This document shows, piece after piece, positions 3,685 to 27,267 of a stretch of DNA of 42,549 nucleotides (within the stretch, counting starts at the first letter, position 1; each line of letters opens with the position of its first letter). The notes beneath the pieces are model-generated. The model searched no databases. It was given only the letters and a program-made list of their open reading frames with translations, and had not been told where the DNA came from. The DNA is from Coprococcus sp. (lineage in GTDB: Bacteria > Bacillota > Clostridia > Lachnospirales > Lachnospiraceae). The position numbers were made by a program, and so were the translations under genes. The stretch lies in NCBI GenBank assembly GCA_022793995.1, contig JAAWDY010000034.1, positions 1 to 42,549 of the forward strand, written 5' to 3'.

Positions 3685-6255
3685 TTAGCAGGTCGCGCCG
3701 CCAACCACATTTTTCTTTAGGATAGCCTCCCTGTCGATCTTACTGTTCAGAAGCTTATCCTGCACATATTCAAATCCCAGGCGGGCGATCGTGTCCGCGA
3801 AACGCTCTCCTGACTCGCCCTCATCACGGAAGAACAAGATCGCGCGCTCTACAAGATCCACGACTTCCTCTTCCGATGTGAAAATCTTATCCAGCGGACG
3901 GCCTTCGGCAACTTTCTTGCCCCATCGCCCGCCAATATAAACTTTATACCCTGATACCAACTCATTCACAGCGCCAAACGGACACTTGCCGACGCAGCGC
4001 CCGCAGTGATTGCATTCTGCCTGGTCGATCCGCATCTTCCCATCTTCAACCTTCGCCACACGAATCGGGCACGCGCTTTCAACCTGGCACACCTTACATC
4101 CCCGGCATTTCTCCAGGTCGATTTCCGGGACTTTCTGTCCCACAATACCCAAGTCATTCAAATCCGGTTTCACACAATTATTCGGACATCCTCCCACCGC
4201 AATCTTGAATTTGTGTGGAAGGGCAACCCCATGGTATCCTGTATAATACAAATCGTGCATTTTCTCGGAAAGCGCAAACGTATCAATCAATCCATACTGG
4301 CAGGTCGTCCCTTTGCAGGATACGACCGGACGCACCTTTGAACCGGTTCCGCCTGTCTCAAGTCCTGCTTCCTCGAGAAACGCCATGAGCGCGTCCAGAT
4401 TGTCGTAGGAAACCCCTTGAATTTCCAAAGTCAAACGCGTCGTCATCGTCACTTCACCGGAACCAAAACGCTCCGCCGCTTCCGCAATCTTCTTCTGTTC
4501 ATCGGCCGTAATTTTACCGTTTCTGGTAATCACACGCACATTAAACACGTCGTCATACCGTTTATCCTGCAGGCAGCCAAGCCCTTTTACCCTTTTAATC
4601 TCTTCCGGGGATAATTTCCCTCCACTTCTAGGCACCTTTACTTCATTAAAAGTCACCCCGCCTTCCAGAACCAGCGTGTTCGTATAGCCCAGGGCTTTCA
4701 TCCTATTCTGCAGGAAATATCCGCGCTTTCCTTTCGCGCATACCAGAAGAATCTTCTCGTCTTTAGCGAGCCCCTCGATCGGCGATGTCACCGTAGTCAA
4801 ATCCACCCAGCGTGCATTCGGAATCGCCGCTTTGGGCTGCACGTCAATTACTGTGTATCCCTTTGCCGCGCCTGCCGCATACTCCGCGGGAGACATGCTC
4901 TCAAGCAGGCCGTCCAGTTTATTCTCCAGGATATAGCAGGCCGTGACGAACGGATGGATTGCCGTGGAGAACGGCGGCGCATACGCGAAATCAAGCGTAT
5001 CGAAGTCATCAAGCTTCATACCCTGTGAAATCCCGGTGACCGCGATATCCGTCATCTTATCCACCGCTCCCGCGCCAAGCACTTGAATCCCTAGCAGCTT
5101 CCTTGTCTTACGGTCCGCAGTTATTTTCACAACAAAGGACGATGCCCCCGGATAATAATGCGCCTTGTCATCCAGAACGGCAACGGAAGACACCGCGTCG
5201 TATCCGGCCTTCTTCGCCTGTTCTTCTGTAAGTCCGGTCCTTCCGCCGTTTAACGTAGGCAGAAGCCGCACCACGCCTGTACCCATACATCCGCCGTAGC
5301 AGCTAGGAGCGCCGTTCAAGCGTTTTGCAAGAACACGTGCCGCGATATTGGCCGTCGATCCCATTGCCGACCACTGTCCTTGGCCTGTAAGAGCATTCTT
5401 CACCATCGCACAGTCGCCCGCCGCATATACGTCTGAGAGATTCGTCTGGAGGCGCTCATCCGTGAGGATCGTCCCTTTGAACATCTCGATTCCTGAATCC
5501 GCCAGGAAATCGGTCGCCGGACGCACACCGATTGCCATAACGACCAGATCTGCCGGGAGGAAACCGTTATCCGTCTCCACACCCTCCGCATGCGCTTCTC
5601 CCCGCACGCCCTTCAAGCTGGTCGATGTCAGCACACGCATCCCTGCCGCTTTTAGCTGACGCTTCGCGTAATCCGCCATCTCTGCATCAAACGCATTCGG
5701 CATAATCTGGGGCGCCATATCGATCACCGTTACAGTAAGACCTTGTGCCATCAGATTCTCCGCAACCTCCAGGCCAATGAACCCGGCGCCGCACACGACT
5801 GCCTTCCGGCAATGATTTTTCTCTATGTATTCCCGAGCGTTCACCGCATCGTCAGGAGTGCGGACACAGAACACGCCTTCCTTATCCGCCCCTTCTACCG
5901 GAGGCACGAACGGAACGGCCCCGGTTGCAATAATCAGCTTATCATACCCTTCTTCAAACGTTTCGCCGGACGCCCTGCGGATCGTCACAGTCTTATTTTT
6001 TGCGTCTACACCGACAGCCTCGTTTCCAGTAAAAACTTCCGCCCCGGTAAGAGCCGCGTACTTCTCAGGAGAATTCACAATCAAAGACGCTCTGTCCGGG
6101 ATATCCCCGCCAATATAGTATGGCAGGCCGCAGCCCGCATAAGAAATATCCTGACTTTTCGTGAAAATCTTCACTTCCGCCTGCCTGTCGCAGCGTTTTA
6201 GTTTTGCCGCCGCCTTCGTCCCTGCGGCAACGCCGCCAAGAATTACGTATTTCAT
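3685..6255 (-). CDS. FAD-dependent CoA-disulfide-reductase-like / rhodanese / siroheme reductase fusion with 2x[4Fe-4S] ferredoxin
   Basis: An 856-residue fusion. Residues 1-450 are a pyridine-nucleotide-disulfide oxidoreductase of the CoA-disulfide reductase group: an FAD fold at the N-terminus, a single active Cys in YAGCGLPYYIGG, an NAD fold and a dimerisation domain. Residues about 455-550 are a rhodanese-like domain with Cys in LLVCAKGKRG. The next part resembles a sulfite/nitrite reductase siroheme half-domain, with CKGTTC and GGCPNNC as likely Fe-S/siroheme ligands. Two ferredoxin motifs follow (CRGCKVCQVESACP and CNHCGRCVGKCP). A role in persulfide, polysulfide or sulfite reduction is likely but inferred. 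ATG 6255 has a strong AAGGAGATG. The upstream promoter carries overlapping palindromes. Confidence 0.85.
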   Translation of the reverse strand: MKYVILGGVAAGTKAAAKLKRCDRQAEVKIFTKSQDISYAGCGLPYYIGGDIPDRASLIVNSPEKYAALTGAEVFTGNEAVGVDAKNKTVTIRRASGETFEEGYDKLIIATGAVPFVPPVEGADKEGVFCVRTPDDAVNAREYIEKNHCRKAVVCGAGFIGLEVAENLMAQGLTVTVIDMAPQIMPNAFDAEMADYAKRQLKAAGMRVLTSTSLKGVRGEAHAEGVETDNGFLPADLVVMAIGVRPATDFLADSGIEMFKGTILTDERLQTNLSDVYAAGDCAMVKNALTGQGQWSAMGSTANIAARVLAKRLNGAPSCYGGCMGTGVVRLLPTLNGGRTGLTEEQAKKAGYDAVSSVAVLDDKAHYYPGASSFVVKITADRKTRKLLGIQVLGAGAVDKMTDIAVTGISQGMKLDDFDTLDFAYAPPFSTAIHPFVTACYILENKLDGLLESMSPAEYAAGAAKGYTVIDVQPKAAIPNARWVDLTTVTSPIEGLAKDEKILLVCAKGKRGYFLQNRMKALGYTNTLVLEGGVTFNEVKVPRSGGKLSPEEIKRVKGLGCLQDKRYDDVFNVRVITRNGKITADEQKKIAEAAERFGSGEVTMTTRLTLEIQGVSYDNLDALMAFLEEAGLETGGTGSKVRPVVSCKGTTCQYGLIDTFALSEKMHDLYYTGYHGVALPHKFKIAVGGCPNNCVKPDLNDLGIVGQKVPEIDLEKCRGCKVCQVESACPIRVAKVEDGKMRIDQAECNHCGRCVGKCPFGAVNELVSGYKVYIGGRWGKKVAEGRPLDKIFTSEEEVVDLVERAILFFRDEGESGERFADTIARLGFEYVQDKLLNSKIDREAILKKNVVGGATC

Positions 6256-19744: not shown

Positions 19745-20719
19745 ATGTGTACAGCGGCAACATATATGACAAAAGATTTTTATTTTGGACGTACACTGGA
19801 TAATAGTTGTTCCTATACCGAGGAGGTCGTTGTAACCCCTCGCAGATATCCCTTTTATTTCCGCAGAACGACTCCGCTCATGACTCACCATGCAATGATC
19901 GGCATTGCGTATGTGTGTGAGGACTTCCCTCTATATTATGATGCGGCAAACGAAAAAGGGCTGGCTATAGCGGGACTGAATTTTGTGGATAACGCCATTT
20001 ACAATGACGTTGATTTACAAAAGGATAATATCGCCCAATTTGAACTCATCCCCTGGATCCTTGGCCAATGCTCTTCCGTGAAAGATGTACGTAGGCTTCT
20101 TGGCTCGATCAACCTGACAAATACCCCATTCAGCGACGATCTCCCGGCCGCCCAGCTCCATTGGCTGGTCGCCGACAGAAGCGAAGCCATCACTGTGGAA
20201 TCCGTGCAGGACGGACTTAAAATCTATGACAACCCGCCCGGCATCCTTACCAACAATCCGCCGTTTCCGGAACAGCTTTTCCAACTGAATAATTATATGG
20301 CGCTTTCCTGTAAGCCGCCCCAGAACCTTTTCTCGTCCAAACTGTCGCTTAAAACTTACAGTCTTGGCATGGGCGCGTTCGGCCTGCCGGGGGATCTCTC
20401 TTCCCAGGCCCGTTTTGTCAGAGCTGCTTTCACAAAAATGAACTCCCGCTCCGGGACGTCTGAATCCGACAGCGTGGCCCAGTTTTTCCATATCCTTGGC
20501 TCCGTCTGCCAGCCCCGCGGATGCTGCGAAACAGAAGACGGCGGATGCGAGATCACACTCTATACGTCCTGCTGTAACGTGGATAAGGGCATTTACTACT
20601 ACACCTCTTATGATAACCATCAGATCTCTGCAGTCGATATGCGCAGAGAAAATTTAGAAGAATCATGCCTGATAAGGTATCCTCTCATTTACGGTGAACA
20701 GATCAGGAGGCAGAACTGA
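19745..20719 (+). CDS. bsh: choloylglycine hydrolase family enzyme, probably bile salt hydrolase
   Basis: A 324-residue Ntn-hydrolase that would cleave glycine or taurine from conjugated bile acids in the cytoplasm. The catalytic Cys is residue 2 (exposed once Met is removed). The other family residues are in place: Arg16 and Asp19 (FGRTLD), Asn79 (GLNF), Asn171 (LTNNPPF) and Arg226 (ARFVR). The LTNNPxFxxQLxxLNNY pattern is typical of bile salt hydrolases more than penicillin V acylases, though substrate cannot be proven. AAAGGAG lies ten bases before the ATG. Divergent from a two-component operon; ends in a strong hairpin. Confidence 0.9.
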   Translation: MCTAATYMTKDFYFGRTLDNSCSYTEEVVVTPRRYPFYFRRTTPLMTHHAMIGIAYVCEDFPLYYDAANEKGLAIAGLNFVDNAIYNDVDLQKDNIAQFELIPWILGQCSSVKDVRRLLGSINLTNTPFSDDLPAAQLHWLVADRSEAITVESVQDGLKIYDNPPGILTNNPPFPEQLFQLNNYMALSCKPPQNLFSSKLSLKTYSLGMGAFGLPGDLSSQARFVRAAFTKMNSRSGTSESDSVAQFFHILGSVCQPRGCCETEDGGCEITLYTSCCNVDKGIYYYTSYDNHQISAVDMRRENLEESCLIRYPLIYGEQIRRQN

Positions 20720-20764: not shown

Positions 20765-23700
20765 TCACATCGCTTTTATACTTTTCTCAATATGCCGGAT
20801 CTCTTCTTTCGTCAGCTTATATTTCGCATAGAGCTTTTCATCCGTCCATTCCTCATTAAAATCCTGCAGAGGTACGAAACGGTACGTTTTCGAGGTGGCA
20901 TCATGGCTTGCTTTTGCCAGGCTGTGCATGAACCTCACAAACCTAGACTGAAAGTACCGGGCAAGATTCTCTGCGCTTTCTTCATTTAGCCTAAGCTTTC
21001 CGCCGATAACGATGTACGCCTCCGTGCAGATGGTGCCCGGCTCTCCGATCAATGTATTCAGGTTATCGTCGCTTAGTTCTGTCCCTATATTATTGGCCCT
21101 TGGCGTAAACACCTTCCAGACATCGATCAGTTCCTTATGCGAAACGGCCAGTTCTTTCTCCACATAGCCGTATTTTCTTCCCTTTCCCACGCACTTTAAC
21201 GGCGATGCCATTCCTTCGGGGGACGTTCGCCAATCGCCCGTTTTTACAATATTACTCTCTATGCCATAAGGCTTCCGGGACGACACATGCTCCGACATCA
21301 CGCCGTTGGCCTCCCCCATCACTTTTCTGAGTATGTCAAGCGCTCTGTGATCCCGGATAAAAATATCAAGCCCCTCTGTCCTGAGACGGCGTTCATCCGT
21401 ACTTGTCCTTGTTCCGCTCTCATGCGTCACGATCTTTGTCATACTCTTCGAGCTGTCATACTCTCTGTCCCACAGGAAATAACAGACGCCTCCCCGATTA
21501 TTCGTGTCCGGGAAAATGTCCTCCGGGTGCAGGCAGTCGTGCAGCTCCCTGATATGAATGTCGTCCAGCATAGAATCCCTGAACTCATCCATCTCCTTCC
21601 CGCCTTTCCCGCCAGTGTACCATCTCGTAGGAATAATCACAGAAGCATAATCTGGCTCAAGCCCCCTGGCAATATTTACAAAATCAGGGTAGATCGGCCT
21701 TGAACTGGCCCCTGCCCCGCCGTCCTCTTCTTGATAGGGTGGATTGCCCACAACTGCGTCAAATACCATATTACCACCTTCCTCACCTGCATCCTCCTTC
21801 AGAGATATCTCGCCGAAGCTTTTCCCCTGCGTCAGTAATGCCGTGATTCTCTCAATATCAACATCCCCGTCTTCCGTCTTTATGTCAAGGAGGTCATACG
21901 AACAGAACCTCCCCGCGATTGACTTTGTACTTAATCCCAGGATCCGGTACATCTTCCGTGTAAATTCATATGCGGCCGGCGAAGTCGCAACCGTCAATAC
22001 CGAATCCTTGATCTTCTCTGTCGGTATGCCCAGACGGGCGCATCTTCTGCAGACAGCCACGGCAAATTCGCCCATCTTGCCGGCAATGTCCAGTATTTTA
22101 TGATCCGTCATGCCGACTCTTTGAAAGCAATCGTCCGGGATCATTCCTATTATCGCTTCCGCGATATGGATCGGCGTCGTGACCTCCGATTCCGATAATT
22201 TCCCAAATTTGTTCACCGCTGTCATTGCTCTTTGGACCGGAGGGATCGAATCATCATGGGACAATTGATTAATATTTTGGATCTTATAGTCAAGCGTATT
22301 GAGGATGAACGGGTTCATATGCCGTCTCATGAGATGCAGCACGTTTTTGTCCAACTGAAGATTTGCCATGATACGGCGGTTGTCGAAGGTTTCGGCGCAC
22401 GATAAAATGTCGTCCAGGGACGCGGTGGTATCTTCTGTCAGATATGCAAAGAACAGAATCCTCGAATAATAGGTCCTAAACTTATTCTCCAGCGCATCAA
22501 GTTCCGTCTCATCCTCGCTGCCTGTGTTTTCAGAGCCGTCTTCCATTCCTTCCTCTTCTTCAGGGCCGCCTCTCTCCCCGGCGGCGCCAAGACCGCCTCC
22601 CTCTTCTGGTTCATCCATATCCGTCCCATTTTCGCCGCCCTGATAGCCTTCCGTCTGCAGGCCGCCCCTCGAGCCGATCTGTGCCTGCCTCCGAACCTCG
22701 TTTAAAATCTCCTCTATTGAGAAAAGCGACGTGTCGACAGGGATGTCCTGCGCTTCCTCCCGGACTCCCCGGCTGCCCGAATACCGGCTGATCTCACTTA
22801 AGATATCCGTCGCTTTCACCTGTTCGACGCGATCCTTGTTCAGCGTGATAATGGGCGAGATACGCAGCTCCTCCTCCATTCGCTCCCGCAGATGCGAATT
22901 TCCTGCTGTGTCCGTATTGGCATTATAGATCAGTGATTTCTGCTCTTGCATCACAAACATCCGATGCGGGTCAAAATCCACCAGGAGTGTCTGGGGTTTC
23001 ATATTATAATGGATTGTCTCGCCGGATTCATTCTCATATCGGCGTATATACTGGTTTTGCAGCCGGAAAACAGCCTGGTCGTACTCCTGCGGCGAAGCTG
23101 TATCCTTGAGAAATATCATGGTGTCCCACTGTTCCACCGTGCTGCCCGTCAGCATTCGGTTTACGGTCAACGTGATTGTTTTTTGGTCTTCTTTTTCACA
23201 GTCCGCAATCGCCTTTTTTACCGCGGACACGCTCCGGTACTGATTCTGTCTGTCCACCCCGGAAATATTAATCACTTTGTACTGGCCCAAATTCCGGAAC
23301 GAACCGGCATTGGCAGTAAACAGCTCTTCCAGAGCGTCGCAGGACGCGCAGTAGGGCAGCACGCATACGATATGACGGCACATCTTACCTTCCTTGATCT
23401 TCTCATAATCCAAAAAGGAGAGGACGCTTCCGTCTTCTTTGCTGCCGTCGATCGCCGCAAATAAGTCCAGTACTTCTTTTTCATGGATAAACTTCTTATG
23501 GCTTCCGTCGCTTTGCCTTGTAAGCGACCTGGGCTTGAACAAGGCGGAAAACGCATAGGTCGTCCCCTTGCTTTTCAGCCTTTCCAAAAGTGCCTTCGCG
23601 GAGGCGTTCGGTACAAACGCAAAACGTACCATCTGAGGGAATCCGAAATATGGGTTCTTCCATTCCTCCTGCTGCTTTCCCTCCGGGAGGGCGTCGTTTG

Positions 23701-24826
23701 CCGCATCCCACGCTTCCTGTTCCTTTACAATATCAGAAAACTGGCAGAACGCCACGATATCCTCTTTGGCAAATTCACTGCCCATCAGAATACGGTACGG
23801 CGTTCCTGACAAGTGGAGCGTGATCTTCACACGCAGCGCTTTCAGCTGCTCCTGCGCTTCCTCCAGCTCGATGAAATCCTCATCCAGATATTTATCTTTC
23901 ACATCCCTTTCATACCCGGAAGTGCGGAGTACCTTTCCATAGCTTTTGGCCCTCGCGCCGTAATGCGTCTCATCGACAATCATAAGGTCAATCGTACCCG
24001 AAAAGATTTCCTTATGCTTCTCTTTGATCTCGTCGCCCGCAAGATCCTGGAGCGTCAGAAAGATCACCGCGCCCTTTGCGCGGTCCATCTCATTTTTCAC
24101 AGCGTTTTCATCCCGGTTCAACTCGTCGGCACAAAGGAAGGTGTAATCCTTACGGAAATTGTCCGCGCTCTGGACCGTTTTCTTCCATTCTTCCCGTACA
24201 TCCGCCTTCGCAGATACCACCAGGACTGTCCTGGCTGAGATCTCCTTCGCACAGCAAAGGGCTGTGAAAGACTTTCCAAAACGCATGACTGCATACATCA
24301 GAAGGTTCGTGCGCCCGCCCCTTACCGCCGCCTTAAAATTGCGGATTGCTTCCGCCTGGTTCGGCCTTGGCTGCCACCAGCCTGTAGACGCGTAGGTATG
24401 TACCTCGGGCAGGCTCGTCTGTGAATTGTAGTACTGATATTTGTCTTCCCCGTTTTGATAGCTCTCCTGTATATCCTTGACCGCCGCTTTTACATCCGCC
24501 TCCCTGGTATCCTTAAAAAATTCTTTGGAATAGTACACGCCGCAGGGAACCTCCTGCGGCGTCAGCCTGTGCTTCTTAAGGTCTGCCTCCAAGAACTGAT
24601 GCACGGCAAAATCCCGGAAGAAGACTTCCGGCGTAATCGTTGCTTTACTATCAAATTCTTTCACCAGATCCGGGAAATATTTCCGCCACTCATTCAGGCG
24701 CACAGACACCGGACGGAAGGTATCCCCTACCTTCAGATAATCCGGCACCGTGTTCGTAGTAAACGCATAGATATGGGGTTCTACGCGACCTACGATCAAT
24801 TCATCCAGTAATTGTATATTATCCAT
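20765..24826 (-). CDS. GIY-YIG nuclease-like / SF2 helicase / Eco57I-type N6-adenine methyltransferase fusion
   Basis: A 1353-residue restriction-modification-like protein. Residues about 15-85 fit a T5orf172/GIY-YIG nuclease: HIYAF, LKVGDT, VRLNEW and a late FAVHQFLE. Residues about 150-620 are an SF2 helicase: Walker A-like MRFGKS (181-186), DEAH variant VDETH (284-288), motif III LSGTPY (339-344), motif VI QAVFRLQNQYIRR (584-596). A flexible Gly/Glu-rich acidic linker spans 720-778. Residues about 785-1353 hold an adenine methyltransferase: motif X TTPIHIAEAI, motif I ILDIAGKMGEF (911-921), catalytic NPPY (1028-1031), and a target-recognition-like C-terminus. The design recalls single-chain type ISP enzymes but with a GIY-YIG nuclease. 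It follows the partner gene by 21 bp. Confidence 0.8.
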   Translation of the reverse strand: MDNIQLLDELIVGRVEPHIYAFTTNTVPDYLKVGDTFRPVSVRLNEWRKYFPDLVKEFDSKATITPEVFFRDFAVHQFLEADLKKHRLTPQEVPCGVYYSKEFFKDTREADVKAAVKDIQESYQNGEDKYQYYNSQTSLPEVHTYASTGWWQPRPNQAEAIRNFKAAVRGGRTNLLMYAVMRFGKSFTALCCAKEISARTVLVVSAKADVREEWKKTVQSADNFRKDYTFLCADELNRDENAVKNEMDRAKGAVIFLTLQDLAGDEIKEKHKEIFSGTIDLMIVDETHYGARAKSYGKVLRTSGYERDVKDKYLDEDFIELEEAQEQLKALRVKITLHLSGTPYRILMGSEFAKEDIVAFCQFSDIVKEQEAWDAANDALPEGKQQEEWKNPYFGFPQMVRFAFVPNASAKALLERLKSKGTTYAFSALFKPRSLTRQSDGSHKKFIHEKEVLDLFAAIDGSKEDGSVLSFLDYEKIKEGKMCRHIVCVLPYCASCDALEELFTANAGSFRNLGQYKVINISGVDRQNQYRSVSAVKKAIADCEKEDQKTITLTVNRMLTGSTVEQWDTMIFLKDTASPQEYDQAVFRLQNQYIRRYENESGETIHYNMKPQTLLVDFDPHRMFVMQEQKSLIYNANTDTAGNSHLRERMEEELRISPIITLNKDRVEQVKATDILSEISRYSGSRGVREEAQDIPVDTSLFSIEEILNEVRRQAQIGSRGGLQTEGYQGGENGTDMDEPEEGGGLGAAGERGGPEEEEGMEDGSENTGSEDETELDALENKFRTYYSRILFFAYLTEDTTASLDDILSCAETFDNRRIMANLQLDKNVLHLMRRHMNPFILNTLDYKIQNINQLSHDDSIPPVQRAMTAVNKFGKLSESEVTTPIHIAEAIIGMIPDDCFQRVGMTDHKILDIAGKMGEFAVAVCRRCARLGIPTEKIKDSVLTVATSPAAYEFTRKMYRILGLSTKSIAGRFCSYDLLDIKTEDGDVDIERITALLTQGKSFGEISLKEDAGEEGGNMVFDAVVGNPPYQEEDGGAGASSRPIYPDFVNIARGLEPDYASVIIPTRWYTGGKGGKEMDEFRDSMLDDIHIRELHDCLHPEDIFPDTNNRGGVCYFLWDREYDSSKSMTKIVTHESGTRTSTDERRLRTEGLDIFIRDHRALDILRKVMGEANGVMSEHVSSRKPYGIESNIVKTGDWRTSPEGMASPLKCVGKGRKYGYVEKELAVSHKELIDVWKVFTPRANNIGTELSDDNLNTLIGEPGTICTEAYIVIGGKLRLNEESAENLARYFQSRFVRFMHSLAKASHDATSKTYRFVPLQDFNEEWTDEKLYAKYKLTKEEIRHIEKSIKAM

Positions 24827-24847
24827 GAAATATCCTCAGTATTCTCC

Positions 24848-25699
24848 TCAACTTTTCTTCAAAAGGGAGCTGTATAAAAACGTCACTTTAGAACGCCAGT
24901 CATGTATTTTACAAGATTCTTTCCCCGCCTCCCCGAACGGCACGGTAAACGTCAGACCGTCCATCTGCCATATATTCCAGGAAATGATGCGGGCGGCCCT
25001 CCTCAATTCCTCCTGCGACGGCTCCCGCTCAAACCGATATTCCATATTTTCCACAAATGTATCCAGCAGGTTCTTTCTGCCAAGGAGCAGGCTGTCGCCC
25101 TGAAATTCAAATCCATAGACACTCTCAAGAGACCGGTACGCCCATTTCATCCACTCTTCCTCGTTGGACGCGTTCTCATTTACAACCCTAAGCTTACGGT
25201 CAAAAAAACCAATACGGTCCTTTACCTTGATCGGCTCCCCTGTCTGCACATCATATCTGCTTGTCAGATACGGCGCCTCTCCGCAAGCGATCTCCAGCCT
25301 CCTTGCATCCACATAATCCACCCACCTGCGTCCCCGCTCTTCTCCAAATACGATCGGTTCCTCTTTCGTCACCCAACCGTTATCCTGCGACATGTTAAAA
25401 ACATCTTCTCTTTTAAACCATGCCGCGTCCACCAGGTTATTCTGCTGGTTACAGATCCAGGAGGGAGTGGATACCTCCGCCTTCATCTTAGTCCGGTTCG
25501 TTCTCCTGGACTTCCCCTTCGTACTGCGCGGCTGCACGATGGACGCATTTGCTCCCGTAATCAGACTTGCCGTGATCGGCCTGTCCGCTTGGTAAGCGTC
25601 CCCGTATTCCACATAATCCTCCGTCGCCCAGATGATATTCCGTCTTGTCGTCCGGTCTTTCAGCAGGATGCGAAGCACCGACTTATTTAATTCTGTCAT
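24848..25699 (-). CDS. methyltransferase-like partner subunit lacking the NPPY motif
   Basis: A 283-residue protein. It has the front half of an Eco57I-type adenine methyltransferase: motif X AEVSTPSWICNQQNNLV, motif I-like LEIACGEAPYLTSRYD, and VYGFEFQGDSLLLGRKNLL like motif III. It then runs through IISWNIWQMDGL to CKIHDWRS, the point where full-length relatives continue to NPPY, and stops 17 residues later. The catalytic motif is therefore absent. Such small proteins are often called restriction subunit M and sit beside helicase-methyltransferase proteins like the next gene. It probably binds SAM or DNA as a structural partner. ATG 25699 (AAAGGAG at seven bases) is preferred over the adjacent GTG. 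Confidence 0.75.
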   Translation of the reverse strand: MTELNKSVLRILLKDRTTRRNIIWATEDYVEYGDAYQADRPITASLITGANASIVQPRSTKGKSRRTNRTKMKAEVSTPSWICNQQNNLVDAAWFKREDVFNMSQDNGWVTKEEPIVFGEERGRRWVDYVDARRLEIACGEAPYLTSRYDVQTGEPIKVKDRIGFFDRKLRVVNENASNEEEWMKWAYRSLESVYGFEFQGDSLLLGRKNLLDTFVENMEYRFEREPSQEELRRAARIISWNIWQMDGLTFTVPFGEAGKESCKIHDWRSKVTFLYSSLLKKS

Positions 25700-25737
25700 C
25701 ACGGTTCTCCTTTTGTTCCCGCGCCTGGCCAGGCGAC

Positions 25738-27267
25738 TTATGCATTCTTATTCAGCAGGCTGCCCAGCTGTCCCGCATGGGAAAGCGCCGCCGGGTTTTG
25801 TATCAGGTTCATGCGGATTCCATCCCTTCCCCGCAGACTGCCGTCAAAATCCAGCCACCCCAGCATATACTGCTCATAGGCGCTTCCCGTCTTGTCGTAG
25901 GAACCGTTCTTCGTATCCGACACGCTGCCAAAGAAATGGTTCCAATAGGCCGTACCGTTCTGATAACGGTAAATCCCGTTCGTCTGTCCTGACCGCACCT
26001 TTTCAGAATACTGGCTTTTCCCAAACTCCGCCCCTTTGATGAGCGCACGCATCACATCGCCAAAGCGCCGGTACTCTTCCATGGTCTTATCATATACCTT
26101 CCAGACGGAATCCTCATCCAACGCCGCGAATCCGCGGGTATCATAGGAAGTCCCGCCCTTCCTGCGCGCCTCTGCCAAACGTTCAAGAATCCCCTGGATA
26201 TAAGCCCTCCGAAATCCTTCAAATGTTCTTTGCAGCGTATCCTTAAGAAAAGCGCTGGTTCCGTCCGCCCCTGAGAGCTTATCCGTCTTCATGGCAGCCA
26301 TGGCAAGGTCAAGCCCCAGCCGTTCCTCATTCATATCGTAAACATTGACCTTCCGCTCCATCGCAGAAAGCCCGGACGCATACTGCCCCAGGGCGTCCAG
26401 ATCCTTCAAGGTATATCCTCCGCTCTTTCCTCCTGCTTTGGATGGAACCTCCCTCTCCCGCAGCATAGCGGCGACATACTCGTCGTCCTTCGCAAGCCAG
26501 GCGTCTTTGGTTCCCTCCGCCCCGGTAAATCCAGGATTCTGCTTCAGGAAAGCCCTATACTCGTCGATCCTCTCCTCTACTCCTGATTTAAAAGACTCAT
26601 ATATCTTCTGCGTCTCCCCGGTAACGCCGTACCTTTCAAGAATTCCTCCCACCGTTTCCGAGTATTCCCTGGCAGCGCCCTCAAGCGCGTCCTCATAGAT
26701 CACTCTCAGCTCACAGAGACGCTCCTTCTGCTCTACCCCGCTGTATATATTCTTAATCTTATCCTCCATCGCCGCATAGCGCGAAGCAAGATAATCGGTC
26801 TTTCTGTTAAATTCCCCGGATTCGATGGAGGCAGAATGGAACTGAACGCCCCGGAACTCAAATTTCAACATACTAAGATCCGCGTCGCTTACCTCGTCCA
26901 ACAGGCTCCCTTCTCTGAGCCTTCTCTCGATCTCCGACGCGCTTAAAGTGAGATTCGACCTGTCCACCGTGCCGTCCAGGACATCCTGTATATTAAATGT
27001 ATTCATCTTTCTCCACTGCTTGTTAATCGCATCTTCTTTCGTATATCCCGAATAATCAACAGCAAAAAGAGAAGCCGTTATCCTTGAATCGTCCGCCTTC
27101 TTCCATCCGCTCTGCGCTTCCAACTTCCCGCCTGCGCCCTCGCTTCCCGTCCCTTGGGCGCCTGTCTTTTCTCCCTGCGGCATATGTCCCTGGGTTAGTT
27201 TTGCCTGGAACGGTTCCGCCGTATTGGCCGCTGCCGGCAGCGCCGCTATTCTTTCTGCTATTGTCAT
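25738..27267 (-). CDS. uncharacterised 509-residue protein, first gene of the helicase-methyltransferase operon
   Basis: I do not recognise this family. No signal peptide or membrane segment is visible. A low-complexity Gly/Ala/Gln/Glu N-terminal region (about residues 15-55) is followed by long predicted helices (for example KTDYLASRYAAMEDKIKNIY and the AALDEDSVWKVYDKTMEEY region) and an aromatic C-terminal part (TAYWNHFFGS, YMLGWLDFDGS). No nuclease, ATPase or protease motif was found. AAGGAG lies nine bases before the ATG. Its stop is 38 bp before the partner subunit on the same strand, so one transcript is likely. It could be a third component of the system or a chance neighbour. Confidence 0.75.
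   Translation of the reverse strand: MTIAERIAALPAAANTAEPFQAKLTQGHMPQGEKTGAQGTGSEGAGGKLEAQSGWKKADDSRITASLFAVDYSGYTKEDAINKQWRKMNTFNIQDVLDGTVDRSNLTLSASEIERRLREGSLLDEVSDADLSMLKFEFRGVQFHSASIESGEFNRKTDYLASRYAAMEDKIKNIYSGVEQKERLCELRVIYEDALEGAAREYSETVGGILERYGVTGETQKIYESFKSGVEERIDEYRAFLKQNPGFTGAEGTKDAWLAKDDEYVAAMLREREVPSKAGGKSGGYTLKDLDALGQYASGLSAMERKVNVYDMNEERLGLDLAMAAMKTDKLSGADGTSAFLKDTLQRTFEGFRRAYIQGILERLAEARRKGGTSYDTRGFAALDEDSVWKVYDKTMEEYRRFGDVMRALIKGAEFGKSQYSEKVRSGQTNGIYRYQNGTAYWNHFFGSVSDTKNGSYDKTGSAYEQYMLGWLDFDGSLRGRDGIRMNLIQNPAALSHAGQLGSLLNKNA

Follow-up and report, generated by a model that had tools for sequence, protein, structure and literature searches.

A contig of Coprococcus sp., family Lachnospiraceae (JAAWDY010000034.1 of assembly GCA_022793995.1; 42,549 nucleotides, the whole of which is referred to below as the window), carries a pair of genes for a predicted restriction-modification enzyme in which two methyltransferase N-terminal lobes (N-lobes) appear to share one C-terminal lobe (C-lobe). 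Comparison of sequences and structural models shows the order of the domains, a small protein that lacks the catalytic NPPY motif, a second N-lobe within the large protein (here called the X-lobe) with altered motifs I and II, and a C-lobe that is traded among relatives. Judged in this way, the unusual feature of the enzyme is that two N-lobes, one of them with an altered site for S-adenosylmethionine (SAM), are present for a single C-lobe. We favour the reading, with a probability of roughly 0.45, that methylation needs the small lobe to be docked on the C-lobe. The features concerned are listed here, where A1 and A2 are alignments of the small and the large protein with 22 and 24 of 120 listed relatives, respectively.

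20765..24826, minus strand: large subunit of 1353 residues, made up of nuclease, motor, X-lobe and C-lobe (PADLOC, Pfam)
24470..24775, minus strand: T5orf172/GIY-YIG-type predicted nuclease domain, residues 18-119 (PF10544, 26.3 bits, cut-off 20)
22637..24436, minus strand: superfamily 2 (SF2) motor region, residues 131-730, outer limits set by us (PF04851 ResIII)
21791..22480, minus strand: X-lobe, residues 783-1012, an N-lobe ahead of the C-lobe, with altered motifs I and II (AlphaFold2 (AF2) fold)
22076..22078, minus strand: codon of K917, at the place of the first motif I glycine (lysine invariant, 24/24)
20768..21790, minus strand: C-lobe, residues 1013-1353, catalytic half and target-recognition region (PDLC03375, 336.9 bits)
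21734..21745, minus strand: catalytic motif IV, NPPY, residues 1028-1031 (24/24 in A2)
24848..25699, minus strand: small subunit of 283 residues, a methyltransferase N-lobe with motifs X, I, II and III and no NPPY (PADLOC, A1, AF2)
25265..25297, minus strand: motif I of the small subunit, residues 135-145, LEIACGEAPYL (E136, C139 and G140 invariant, 22/22)
25738-27267, minus strand: open reading frame (ORF) of 509 residues

The first-pass annotation had described three ORFs on the minus strand, of 509, 283 and 1353 residues with gaps of 38 and 21 bp, and re-examination confirmed them: the small gene lies 21 bp ahead of the large one, with the 509-residue ORF 38 bp upstream of the pair. Begun at a GTG one codon upstream, the small ORF would have 284 residues. 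Of 7999 candidates scored per protein search, 7664 were relatives of the large protein and 5297 of the small one with E up to 0.001. Gene arrangement was followed in the best 80 of at least 574 small-lobe relatives in the genome_contigs scan, a scope that holds for every count of 80 loci below; by record title these came from Clostridia, Treponema, Parabacteroides, Bifidobacteriaceae, Oceanivirga, Mycoplasma, Alphaproteobacteria and others. ORFs in the locus scripts were read from stop to stop. The counts for 97 small lobes, 75 C-lobes and 61 loci may include duplicate sequences, while those for 157 small lobes, 128 X-lobes and the viral loci had identical sequences removed and nothing else de-duplicated.

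On alignment and model, the small protein is not a whole gamma-class methyltransferase but its N-terminal half. The PADLOC MTase_II model PDLC03390 matches its residues 4-254 with 349.8 bits, and it has no match in Pfam or NCBIfam. The SAM-binding motifs I to III are kept across the 22 rows of A1, with E198 replaced once by D and D247 once by N; by pattern search, CG of motif I was found in 147/157 small lobes and an acid at motif II in 155/157. The lobe likely binds SAM. Its AF2 model, made with 22 of 120 listed relatives, superposes on residues 10-155 of CamA and ends before NPPY. The catalytic motif IV, [NDS]PP[YFW], was present in none of 97 small-protein relatives, on which ground we rejected the small protein as a complete methyltransferase. 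The description of this 283-residue partner as methyltransferase-like is corrected accordingly, to an N-terminal half that has no catalytic motif.

The X-lobe is, as far as its sequence tells, an N-lobe that has lost key residues of the SAM site. It carries motif X, followed by LDIAGKMGEFA at the place of motif I. Across 128 distinct X-lobes from four sequence classes, the motif I glycine position holds lysine in 123, threonine in 4 and glycine in none, with one X-lobe not covered there. The window's X-lobe reads TS where the motif II acid would stand, and an acid occurs at the aligned position in 0/128 X-lobes, which have PTSS, CKTP, YGxA or FGxA/G instead; this count was taken by alignment column, a pattern search having matched only 97 of the 128. 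The motif I aspartate, D913, is invariant (24/24). Comparison of the small-lobe and X-lobe profiles aligned only 24 columns around motif X, with a probability of 13%, and the class d profiles of the two lobes gave a weak cross-match. The nearly invariant lysine may stand in for the positive charge of SAM in the pocket. We set aside a first idea that the X-lobe is a remnant, and the lobe itself stays in play because AF2 shows a confident fold with the C-lobe in cis.

The large protein, nuclease and motor included, is covered from end to end by the PADLOC REase_MTase_IIG model PDLC03626 (1419.2 bits, profile positions 7-1359 of 1359). T5orf172 is a member of the GIY-YIG superfamily, and in A2 the residues Y20, K32, G34, R43, D72 and E102-F103-F104 are invariant (24/24), with H76 in 23/24; we take these to be characteristic GIY-YIG residues. 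By profile and residues the N-terminus is assigned to the GIY-YIG superfamily and is a predicted nuclease, and no Mrr-type Pfam family matched it up to E 0.1. It is strongly similar in 31 of the best 80 loci, and of 39 loci with a less similar N-terminus 35 gave a PF10544 match with E no higher than 0.01 (39 of 40 scanned, one duplicate having been removed; 9 of the best 80 had no usable large-protein N-terminus). The motor gives a ResIII match at residues 152-301 (49.1 bits, above the Pfam cut-off), and its motifs MRFGKS, DETH, SGTP and QxxFRxQNQ are kept in 24/24. Because these motifs are present, the enzyme would be expected to use ATP. The T5orf172/GIY-YIG-like N-terminus, the SF2 helicase motifs and the Eco57I-type methyltransferase with NPPY at 1028-1031 that had been read from the DNA are all borne out by these matches, the last by Pfam Eco57I at residues 982-1105, above cut-off. 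The exchange of the nuclease that had been called unusual is not peculiar to the window: a GIY-YIG-type domain is general among these systems.

The two genes keep company. Of the best 80 genome loci, 61 extend 4 kb or more beyond the small gene, and both C-lobe and motor come after it in 60 of these, which upholds the annotated fusion of GIY-YIG domain, helicase and methyltransferase with a constant small partner. The exception is L089 (7950-10647), in which the small lobe is followed by a 578-residue ORF ending in an X-lobe (331 bits); the N-terminus of this ORF is metallophosphoesterase-like by eye, and no motor or C-lobe was recognised within 16.9 kb. The window's arrangement, a small lobe and then nuclease, motor, X-lobe and C-lobe on one chain, was found in 54 of the best 80 loci; the C-lobe is a separate gene in 4 and fused to the small lobe in 1, 2 loci are interrupted, and 19 are partial or cut by contig ends. 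Among relatives, the C-lobe is thus met on the nuclease protein, as a gene by itself or joined to the small lobe. Where it is split off or fused to the small lobe, the motor protein ends in the X-lobe, with no C-lobe after it (8/8 aligned). The fusions of small lobe and C-lobe at L107, L134, L142 and L143 align with the window's X-lobe and C-lobe only from about 27 residues before NPPY, and by this alignment it is in the N-lobe that they differ. In a fourth form, the small lobe has a canonical motif I (ORFs of about 215-300 residues, one of 378) and comes with a protein of about 500-600 residues that bears X-lobe and C-lobe, and with a separate motor.

An NPPY-type motif is present in 74/75 C-lobes. 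Among 21 loci of the window's type, X-lobe identity correlates with nuclease-motor identity (r 0.88), C-lobe identity is nearly independent of X-lobe and nuclease-motor (r 0.24 and 0.22), and mean identity is 0.35 for the C-lobe versus 0.58 for the nuclease-motor; in a second class of 26 loci the corresponding r values are 0.93, 0.19 and 0.17. From this independence and from its lower identity, we infer that the C-lobe is traded as a cassette. With one C-lobe for both activities, the specificities of marking and cutting would change together. Co-variation of the C-lobe with either N-lobe did not decide the pairing in these two sets. Given the nuclease-motor, the partial r of the C-lobe in the 21 loci was 0.21 for the small lobe (reached in 10/500 permutations) and 0.11 for the X-lobe (72/500); in the 26 loci it was 0.06 and 0.09 (95 and 45 of 500 permutations, respectively).

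Two further loci concern the C-lobe gene itself. The C-lobe that stands alone at L119 (5605-6642) adjoins a small lobe and a motor protein; NPPY was not found in it, and it is possibly inactive or altered. At L128 (6893-13708), on a Bifidobacterium longum plasmid, an IS256-family transposase gene lies between the small-lobe and C-lobe genes.

Viral relatives were scored with profile cut-offs of 200 bits for the C-lobe, 100 for the X-lobe, 90 for the small lobe and 20 for the motor. Motor, X-lobe and small lobe accompany 45 of 55 distinct viral C-lobes. An X-lobe of at least 100 bits is present in 48/48 motor-bearing viral loci versus 1/7 motor-less ones, the one being at a contig end; a small lobe accompanies 5 of the 7 motor-less C-lobes. 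L175, which begins 0.3 kb from a contig edge, and L177 encode single chains with canonical LEPACGSGNF and NPPYQ, and neither a full X-lobe nor a motor was found at either. The enzyme of Fusobacterium phage FNU4 is another single-chain form of small lobe and C-lobe without full X-lobe or motor; a viral scan with it gave 18 pattern matches, none of which was confirmed. In Tenacibaculum phage PTm1 (L125) the annotation gives intact genes for C-lobe and small lobe, the 9.4 kb read contain no motor, and at 3866-5369 an X-lobe coding stretch is split over two reading frames. Separately, viral stretches L144-L149, L152 and L246-L251, some of which are the same contig twice, hold small-lobe genes of about 215-290 residues with no C-lobe or motor recognised in the stretch; L146 extends 6 kb to either side of its small lobe and includes a gene that is ParB-like by eye.

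We propose that an adenine at the enzyme's site would be methylated when the small lobe is docked on the C-lobe, and that with the X-lobe in the small lobe's place the C-lobe would recognise the site without methylating it and, where the target is unmethylated, would pass it on to motor and nuclease. A shared, recognition-bearing C-lobe would keep marking and cutting matched through each C-lobe exchange. Which N-lobe serves each step is the least certain part of the proposal. In its specific form, swapping of N-lobes would make the C-lobe a writer when paired in trans with the SAM-binding lobe, and a reader that flags unmethylated sites when paired with the lysine-plugged, motor-linked lobe; we put this forward tentatively, as a doubtful but serious possibility.

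Several observations weigh against the favoured reading. In the AF2 model the X-lobe packs against the C-lobe in cis to give a complete methyltransferase fold, with a predicted local distance difference test score of 87.6; the model aligns with residues 26-577 of CamA, and its structural matches include HsdM-type subunits, CamA, M.BseCI and M.TaqI. This modelling covered the window and 22 of 25 loci, leaving out two near-identical copies and Mycoplasma L093, which is broken under table 11. Three loci run counter to the pattern set out for forms without a motor: L166, near a contig edge, has a 23-bit piece of X-lobe ahead of its C-lobe; L168 shows a C-lobe but no recognised N-lobe of either kind; and at L201 no small lobe was recognised next to a chain of nuclease, motor, X-lobe and C-lobe.

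The large protein could instead be a complete methyltransferase in cis, with an X-lobe that binds SAM despite its lysine and a small protein that is an accessory, which regulates, stabilises or aids DNA binding. The full fold predicted for X-lobe and C-lobe, the PADLOC label of the whole large protein as a Type IIG enzyme-methyltransferase and the invariance of D913 all speak for this. It must be set against the absence of the motif I glycine and the motif II acid from the 128 X-lobes, both of which the small lobe keeps, against the several motor-less forms that retain small lobe and C-lobe without a full X-lobe, and against the split relatives, in which X-lobe and C-lobe are on different chains. 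On this balance we consider a complete enzyme in cis rather unlikely. Alternatively, the small lobe could be permanently paired with the C-lobe, and the X-lobe would be a structural coupler of motor and methyltransferase that never uses the C-lobe. Such a coupler is consistent with the presence of an X-lobe in all 48 motor-bearing viral loci, with motor proteins of split relatives that end in an X-lobe, and with the existence of enzymes that join small lobe and C-lobe in a single chain; what argues against it is the confidence with which AF2 folds X-lobe and C-lobe together in cis, and we regard it as unlikely. An ordinary Type IIG enzyme next to a separate, complete methyltransferase, as the PADLOC labels REase_MTase_IIG and MTase_II would have it, is highly improbable, since the partner has no motif IV and the labels name halves as whole methyltransferases (PDLC03390 corresponds to the N-lobe and PDLC03375 to the C-lobe).

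The 509-residue gene was tried as a component of the system and rejected. Its protein had no match in Pfam, NCBIfam or PADLOC, and a protein search gave 80 relatives. By tblastn, the gene was found in only one of the best 80 loci (L045, 76% identity), where the block is syntenic throughout: transporter, 509-residue gene, the pair, and a bile-salt-hydrolase-like gene. At least 2 kb was available upstream of the small gene in 64 of the 80 loci, and the remaining 16 say little about this gene. A survey of the window's family covered 250 genomes, of which 13 had the small protein, 16 the large protein or parts of it, and 3 the 509-residue protein. A large-protein match accompanied the small protein in 11 of the 13, the other 2 having small-protein fragments only, and the 509-residue protein accompanied it in 1 of the 13, the window's own genome. 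The proposed three-gene unit was accordingly dropped: when neighbourhoods were surveyed for co-occurrence of the trio, the pair was constant and the third gene, which recurs beside it only in a syntenic near relative, was not. Other neighbours by Pfam scan were a CBAH hydrolase, a MATE transporter, a permease and a two-component pair; no HsdS specificity subunit of the Type I kind is among these, although no search was aimed at one. The choloylglycine hydrolase gene (19745-20719 of the window) is convergent with the large gene and matches the bile salt hydrolase equivalog NF038245 with 452 bits (cut-off 350).

The enzyme is placed among Type IIG/ISP-like restriction-modification systems, as a variant whose relatives are already catalogued by PADLOC. 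To call it a candidate new system was too strong, as PADLOC-DB 2.0.0 has models for both proteins and the consulted part of PMC4752239 describes Type IIG-like systems in which GIY-YIG nuclease and translocase are proteins of their own. The order of an SF2 motor, a gamma-class methyltransferase and a C-terminal recognition region is that of the Type ISP enzymes, of which LlaGI and LlaBIII are described, in the portions of PMC3874165 and PMC4666363 consulted, as single chains with an Mrr-type nuclease. The window's enzyme differs from these in its GIY-YIG-type domain, in its altered SAM site and in an N-lobe encoded by a gene of its own; T5orf172 stands at the N-terminus in place of an Mrr-type PD-(D/E)XK/QXK nuclease, and with a small-lobe gene ahead of C-lobe and motor it is not a single polypeptide. 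For Type IIG the picture is mixed: the nuclease and methyltransferase domains occupy a single chain that the PADLOC Type IIG model matches in full, but the SAM site of that chain is altered. The PADLOC labels match both proteins (PDLC03626 and PDLC03390), the latter treating the small one as a whole methyltransferase, and the arrangement of two N-lobes and one C-lobe is absent from them.

The close known systems include OspHL35III, one of the Type IIG-like systems of Blow et al. 2016, which like the enzyme here combines a methyltransferase bearing the recognition domain, a translocase and a GIY-YIG nuclease with a single recognition module; it differs in consisting of three separate proteins with an MmeI-like methyltransferase, and the excerpt of PMC4752239 does not mention a split or duplicated N-lobe. 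CamA, whose fold matches both models, is presented in the section of PMC8187626 consulted as an orphan gamma-class adenine methyltransferase, a single complete chain with no paired restriction enzyme. In the non-canonical Type I methyltransferase PacII M1M2S, M1 and M2 serve N6-methyladenine and N4-methylcytosine with a separate S subunit, and the abstract of PMC9613975 makes no mention of a shared C-lobe. The two-N-lobe arrangement was likewise not matched in the consulted parts of PMC1564403, PMC12707154, PMC10853773 and PMC12839542. No PDB sequence was hit when either protein, or profile A1 or A2, served as the query. No account of the two-N-lobe arrangement was found in titles and the beginnings of abstracts of the open-access PubMed Central literature, a limited test that did not cover REBASE.

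If the two N-lobes do share one C-lobe, this would explain how marking and cutting are kept matched while specificity changes. The small lobe and C-lobe would then constitute a natural split adenine methyltransferase, and cloning these enzymes would require both genes for protection.

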